Origin: Pseudomonadota bacterium
GTDB lineage: Bacteria > Pseudomonadota > Gammaproteobacteria > Acidiferrobacterales > Acidiferrobacteraceae
Assembly (NCBI GenBank): GCA_021841585.1
Contig: JAKBUS010000006.1
Span: 1-64,000, forward strand
Direction of reading: 5' to 3'
DNA length: 64,000 nucleotides
Shown here: in pieces, positions 59,648 through 60,896 of the stretch
Layout: every line of letters begins with the position of its first letter
Numbering within the stretch: position 1 is the first letter of the stretch
Notes under the pieces: generated by a model
Databases searched by the model: none
The model's input: only the letters and a program-made list of their open reading frames with translations
Told to the model about the DNA's origin: nothing
Made by a program: the position numbers and the translations under genes

Positions 59648-59678
59648 AAAGGGGAGGCCGGGAACCGGCCACCCCTTT
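59648..59678 (+). terminator. Probable terminator after the ferredoxin gene
   Basis: GGGGAGGCCGG pairs with CCGGCCACCCC across a short loop with one mismatch, preceded by an A-run and followed by TTT. The A-run on one side and T's on the other would suit either strand. It separates the ferredoxin transcript from the small-RNA promoter 34 bp on. Confidence 0.6.
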
Positions 59679-59711
59679 CATGGTCATACGAAGTAAGGAT
59701 CTTGATGCCCC

Positions 59712-59740
59712 TTGACAGCAAGGGTCTTATATTAGATAAT
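59712..59740 (+). promoter_or_regulatory. Strong sigma-70-type promoter for the small RNA
   Basis: A perfect TTGACA (59712-59717) and GATAAT (59735-59740) are separated by 17 bp inside AT-rich DNA. This is the best consensus promoter seen in the window. It predicts a start near 59747. Confidence 0.75.
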
Positions 59741-59746
59741 TATTAT

Positions 59747-59848
59747 ATGCTTTCAGCGGATCGGACCAATAAGCCCGGTCCGCATACCGGCTCCTCCATC
59801 CTCCTAGTGGTGGTTCAAGGCGTGGTTTAACCCACGCCTTCTTTTTTT
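59747..59848 (+). ncRNA. Candidate small regulatory RNA, about 100 nt
   Basis: Between a consensus promoter and a strong intrinsic terminator lies a stretch without a plausible ORF. It begins with a hairpin (CGGACC at 59762-59767 with GGTCCG at 59777-59782, 9-nt loop). A single-stranded C/U-rich region with two anti-Shine-Dalgarno motifs follows (CCTCC at 59793-59797 and CCTCCT at 59800-59805). A terminator hairpin with seven T's closes it. This is the typical architecture of a trans-acting small RNA that pairs with ribosome-binding sites. No known family is recognised. An alternative, a separate leader for rplM, is unlikely because the terminator lies between. Confidence 0.65.
59817..59848 (+). 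terminator. Rho-independent terminator of the small RNA
   Basis: AAGGCGTGG and CCACGCCTT form a perfect 9-bp stem around a 6-nt loop, followed by C and seven T's. It stops transcription before the rplM promoter. Confidence 0.88.
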
Positions 59849-59904: not shown

Positions 59905-59933
59905 TTGACAGGGCGGCTACTCCTCCGTACCAT
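59905..59933 (+). promoter_or_regulatory. Probable rplM-rpsI promoter
   Basis: TTGACA and TACCAT are 17 bp apart, 38 bp upstream of the rplM ATG. The spacing and the perfect -35 support a housekeeping promoter. The predicted leader is about 30 nt, too short for a large regulatory structure. Confidence 0.65.
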
Positions 59934-60822: not shown

Positions 60823-60896
60823 TGGGGGATCGTCTAGTGGTAGGACAGCGGACTCTGACTCCGTTAACCGAGGTTCGAATCCTCGTCCCCCAGCCA
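60823..60896 (+). tRNA. tRNA-Gln (anticodon CTG)
   Basis: The 5' arm TGGGGGA pairs with TCCCCCA at the 3' end, followed by a discriminator G and an encoded CCA. The D arm (CTAGTGGTAGG), the anticodon stem-loop (GCGGA-CTCTGAC-TCCGT, anticodon CTG) and the T arm (GAGGTTCGAATCCTC) are all in place. It reads CAG codons. It starts 13 bp after the rpsI stop, so it may be processed from that transcript. Confidence 0.95.

Follow-up and report, generated by a model that had tools for sequence, protein, structure and literature searches.

A real, deeply conserved small RNA (sRNA) gene lies upstream of rplM in an Acidiferrobacteraceae genome, and it is a gammaproteobacterial relative of the Betaproteobacteria toxic sRNA (RF02278), S17 of Bordetella pertussis and NcS27 of Burkholderia cenocepacia. 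It was found in the 64,000-nucleotide stretch of DNA analysed here (the window). The family is known in kind; what is new is that it occurs, at a fixed position, in Gammaproteobacteria other than Burkholderiales, together with a sub-threshold variant structure and a shared promoter motif. By analogy with the published members, the RNA very probably acts in trans as their gammaproteobacterial positional orthologue and blocks Shine-Dalgarno (SD) regions with Hfq.

Results

Anatomy of the locus

The earlier note had described a promoter, a 5' hairpin, CCTCC elements and a terminator with seven T's at 59712-59848, and all of them were found again on re-reading the sequence (Table 1). The promoter matches 11 of the 12 consensus letters of the -35 and -10 elements, and the terminator stem (AAGGCGTGG/CCACGCCTT) has nine perfect pairs and a 6-nt loop. 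CCTCC and CCTCCT had both been taken as single-stranded; this holds for the second element (CCUCCUA), which lies in a loop, but the first CCUCC is partly paired (CCUCCA with UGGUGG). For the 102-nt transcript starting at 59747 the folding energy is -38.7 kcal/mol, whereas its shuffled versions average -24.7 (z = -4.8). When the intergenic region was shuffled 20,000 times with dinucleotides preserved, an equally good promoter arose in 27 shuffles and an equally good terminator in one, and the two in correct order in none.

The gene order in the window is osmC (56567), a glyoxalase-like gene, coq7 (57434), a GlcF-like gene, a [2Fe-2S] ferredoxin gene, the sRNA gene, rplM and rpsI. The upstream ferredoxin named in the earlier note does match a thioredoxin-like [2Fe-2S] ferredoxin, but only below the Pfam cut-off (19.5 vs 24.8 bits). 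At the 3' end of this gene a strong inverted repeat, GGGGAGGCCGG-GAACC-GGCCACCCC (59650-59680), recurs in variant form in members of the genus and is probably the gene's terminator. Because rplM has its own promoter-like site, the sRNA gene is most likely a separate unit. A tRNA gene (60823-60893) lies downstream of rplM-rpsI, and a tRNA gene is found near rpsI in several relatives too.

Table 1. Features of the sRNA locus in window coordinates
Feature	Position	Strand	Remarks
-35 element TTGACA	59712-59717	+	TTGAC(A) kept across most of the order
Near-palindromic motif ATATTAGATAATTATTATAT around -10, candidate operator	59729-59748	+	Near-invariant in 57 homologue promoters
-10 element GATAAT	59735-59740	+	17-nt spacer after -35
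sRNA gene, ~102 nt	59747-59848	+	RF02278 match at 59788-59847; 5' end predicted ~7 nt after -10
5' hairpin	59756-59783	+	Sequence drifts, fold retained in 15 family members
Anti-SD element 1 CUCCUCC	59791-59797	+	Invariant in the order, near-invariant class-wide; equivalent of S17 Site 1
Short hairpin CCUCCA/UGGUGG	59793-59813	+	7-nt loop displays anti-SD element 2
Anti-SD element 2 CCUCCUA	59800-59806	+	In short-hairpin loop; equivalent of S17 Site 2
Intrinsic terminator	59817-59848	+	Stem 59817-59840, then C, T run 59842-59848 (seven T's)
rplM promoter TTGACA-17-TACCAT	59905-59933	+	Downstream of sRNA terminator; conserved in genus

Conservation across the order and the class

Across 22 members of Acidiferrobacterales the core CUCCUCCAUCCUCCUAGUG does not vary, while its flanks drift; every base of CTCCTCCATCCTCCTAGTG is identical in the 22, followed by RTGGTTC. 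A scan of named genome contigs found the exact 19-nt core in 35 of them; those with informative names are mostly Acidiferrobacterales, Muproteobacteria or Sulfuricaulis, the rest bearing generic MAG labels and one being named Nitrospira. The RNA is 99-105 nt long within the family and 128-187 nt elsewhere in the order because its 5' part is longer there. Although the sequence of this 5' segment varies, each of the 15 family members still forms a hairpin there (shuffle z -0.6 to -4.2).

A model built from the order's sequences was run on 276 genomes sampled from the whole class and matched 113 of them (E<=0.01). A few weak matches from other classes came up when the whole phylum was scanned. 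No similar DNA was found in E. coli genomes. In a class-wide alignment of 55 distinct sequences, compensatory changes occur in all 8 main pairs of the terminator stem, with 70 double-change cells against 17.4 in shuffled data, a value reached in 0 of 500 shuffles and with low slid controls, though the fitting of the alignment to the structure of the model somewhat favours this result. The comparative alignment suggested in the earlier note yielded a CCTCC core invariant within the order and compensatory changes in the terminator, but no covariation support for the short hairpin; the sequence of this hairpin is itself conserved, so covariation can speak neither for it nor against it. Loss of the hairpin and terminator in relatives, which would have spoken against the gene, did not occur. 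The description as a stand-alone sRNA with anti-SD elements stands, given that promoter, core and terminator are conserved throughout the order and that the published homologues are free and Hfq-dependent.

The genome of the window holds a second, weak match to the order's model (G000:C18:4151-4200, 21.4 bits), which could be a degenerate paralogue or a chance match. Two or three sRNA copies stand in tandem arrays at L108 1368-1559, L126 1129-1338, G306:C3:141779-142059 and G287:C3:217943-218301. At another locus, an unlinked sRNA copy with an osmC-like gene upstream is followed after about 130 bp by a tandem glycine riboswitch (L077 1689-1870).

Relation to the toxic sRNA family

No family had been recognised in the earlier note, and here the Rfam search leads to a different statement: the RNA is a sub-threshold relative of RF02278. 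This family gave the sole significant match, over model positions 1-64 of 64 (E 9e-5), at 30.7 bits against a gathering threshold of 50 bits, so that the cut-off is not reached. Of 60 relatives, 46 have a match, in every case below the cut-off. Only two genomes in the class sample exceed it, both of one family: L098/G252, with a 16S 97.5% identical to Comamonas, and L099/G146. In 20 loci, RF02278 apart, no Rfam family reached gathering score over the homologous RNA; mmgR/suhB, ncS16 and PrrF scored at chance level only.

RF02278 includes NcS27, NcS03, NcS05 and NcS62, the 'double-hairpin RNAs' of B. cenocepacia. The window RNA shares with it the CUCCUCCA 5' element, the two-hairpin layout (an anti-SD loop hairpin after the CUCCUCC stretch, then an intrinsic terminator hairpin), a CUCCU-bearing loop closed by a UGG-containing arm, the UUCA linker and the neighbourhood of accepted members, namely osmC and coq7, with rplM in many Burkholderiales. 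On the other hand, its short hairpin is less extensively paired than the 8-pair first stem of RF02278, its score is some 20 bits below gathering, its genome holds one clear copy whereas Burkholderia has 3-5, its promoter motif differs from that of rplM-linked Burkholderiales copies, and its host is gammaproteobacterial and lies outside the Burkholderiales clade. According to earlier descriptions the toxic sRNA family does not extend beyond Betaproteobacteria (PMC7011215), apart from a single strain-level mention in Aeromonas (PMC8780938).

The surroundings of the gene are shared as well. Of the 26 strong class matches outside the order, most are directly followed by rplM-rpsI, and almost every one has one gene or more of the osmC/coq7/ferredoxin/rplM-rpsI set within 1.5 kb. 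In both genomes above the RF02278 cut-off osmC and coq7 lie beside the RNA, rplM adjoins it in 11 of 25 loci examined in Burkholderiales (the order of the Comamonas-like genome), and S17 of B. pertussis adjoins coq7 (PMC11722255). The class matches were placed by an RplM/RpsI tree plus family labels: Burkholderiales form one clade (support 1.0) apart from the other carriers, and the families sampled from Burkholderiales do not overlap those of the class scan except for one shared by construction. With core, architecture and position all shared, orthology is the simplest reading; that a single tiny gene was transferred to that spot many times over is unlikely. The window sRNA is thus most likely the positional orthologue of S17 and NcS27.

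A promoter motif shared with sulfur and redox genes

In an alignment of 57 motif-bearing homologue promoters, conservation extends well beyond the -10 element (ATATTAGANAATNNTNATAT) and tends to the palindrome ATATTAG-N6-CTAATAT. With two mismatches allowed, three genomes of one sister family carry 15-18 copies, compared with 1-4 of the reversed pattern used as control, an excess that may partly reflect composition in AT-rich promoters. The genome of the window has two copies, one in the sRNA promoter and one at G000:C99:11706-11725 (L204 1207-1226), upstream of a 4Fe-4S protein gene adjoining a dsrE2-like gene, where the site is conserved in three relatives. Among copies chosen by hand for inspection in related genomes, further ones lie upstream of genes for Rieske protein, DsrC, rhodanese, DUF302, C_GCAxxG_C_C, Rrf2 and pyrophosphatase. 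Many rplM-linked Burkholderiales copies of the sRNA and some gammaproteobacterial ones are without the motif. Burkholderiales copies away from rplM (L137-L139, L141-L144, L161) have a AATATTAGATAATTCTAATAAC-type promoter motif, and several of these carry the perfect inverted repeat TATTAGA-TAAT-TCTAATA.

These occurrences suggest a putative sulfur- or redox-linked regulator of the sRNA promoter, which we offer as a lead and not as a result; the overlap of the motif with the -10 element would suit repression. A Fur/PerR box had been considered for GATAAT-N-ATTAT from likeness by eye, and the class-wide ATATTAG-N6-CTAATAT fits better. A literature search with the motif sequence returned nothing relevant, and a look at known SoxR and BigR operators gave no sequence for comparison.

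Discussion

The best-studied homologue is S17, which has a sigma-70-type promoter and is made as a 190-nt RNA that RNase E cuts just before the C/U-rich core; S17 is Hfq-dependent and its short form binds Hfq (PMC11722255). About 92 genes were raised without S17, and 70 of them show complementarity, at the ribosome-binding site (RBS) or close to it, to the single-stranded sites of S17 (PMC11722255). In B. cenocepacia, overexpression of NcS27 attenuates growth and its silencing raises it (PMC5688073), and its predicted targets belong to transport and catabolism (PMC5688073, PMC10987360). The window RNA resembles S17 in its coq7 neighbour and in its two anti-SD elements, which correspond to Sites 1 and 2, and has, like the S17 long form, the conserved core at the 3' end before the terminator. 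It differs in length (~102 against 190 nt for the S17 precursor), and the window gives no sign that expression follows a virulence regulator. AbcR RNAs of alpha-rhizobia (PMC8844928) and other anti-SD sRNAs also direct a CU-rich seed against the RBS; the likeness to AbcR comes from a literature match for CUCCUCC plus sRNA and concerns the mode of action.

The same two sites, a variable 5' part, a U-tailed terminator and an hfq gene in the genome (G000:C10:5415-5603, E 3.7e-29) lead us to propose Hfq-assisted occlusion of the RBS. RNA polymerase would start at about 59747 and stop at the terminator near 59848, and RNase E may trim the RNA ahead of the core as in S17. CUCCUCC, at the short hairpin's 5' side, and the loop sequence CCUCCUA would then pair with the SD regions of many mRNAs, with Hfq assisting, and keep ribosomes from loading. 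The likely outcome would be that transport and catabolic genes are broadly turned down when conditions are limiting. A search of the genome with 15 nt of the complement of the core gave no convincing extended targets; it found four near-matches elsewhere in the genome, one of them just upstream of a plausible start. Duplex energies over crude gene calls in the window were uninformative. The role in growth or redox control suggested in the earlier note is indirectly favoured by the growth effect of NcS27 overexpression and by the promoter motif upstream of sulfur and redox genes, and that interpretation as a whole is partly supported.

We regard it as unlikely that the RNA is instead a ribosome effector or sponge, with CCUCC elements that resemble the 16S rRNA 3' end and titrate either some factor or SD-rich RNAs on a bulk scale, rather than repressing chosen mRNAs. 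CCUCCU also occurs in the anti-SD of 16S rRNA, which counts for such a role, and the core is conserved far beyond the need of pairing with drifting targets. Homologues are also toxic in E. coli (PMC4603805); S17 is not (PMC11722255), so effects differ between members. Against titration in bulk, S17 has one directly proven target, repressed in a translational reporter, and the genes it affects are a subset (PMC11722255).

A 5' leader or attenuator of rplM, with a conditional terminator through which the RNA controls read-through into the L13-S9 operon, would suit the position of the sRNA just upstream of rplM and in the same direction at most loci, but it is very unlikely. The rplM gene has its own conserved promoter after the sRNA terminator, linkage is not constant because copies with the same core occur without rplM nearby (e.g. 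L078, L089, L137-L139, L141-L144), the folds show no sign of an alternative anti-terminator, and published homologues are free sRNAs on Northern blots. That promoter-like and terminator-like DNA came together by chance and yields no product has a negligible probability in view of the shuffling result and the order- and class-wide conservation.

In Gammaproteobacteria the toxic sRNA family appears here as an old gene in a fixed position, its core better conserved than its flanks. The gammaproteobacterial RNA falls below the Rfam threshold and is therefore not annotated; a rebuilt RF02278 model would make the range of the family testable at once. It also offers a non-pathogenic host for asking what the toxic sRNA family does, and the shared promoter motif is a lead to its regulator. 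As a tentative proposal, with the chances rather against it, the sRNA may already have stood beside coq7, osmC and rplM before Burkholderiales and other Gammaproteobacteria split, its anti-SD core staying nearly unchanged and a sulfur or redox regulator acting on ATATTAG-N6-CTAATAT in many lineages. If this is true, the sRNA would be a broad translational brake wired to sulfur-based energy metabolism.
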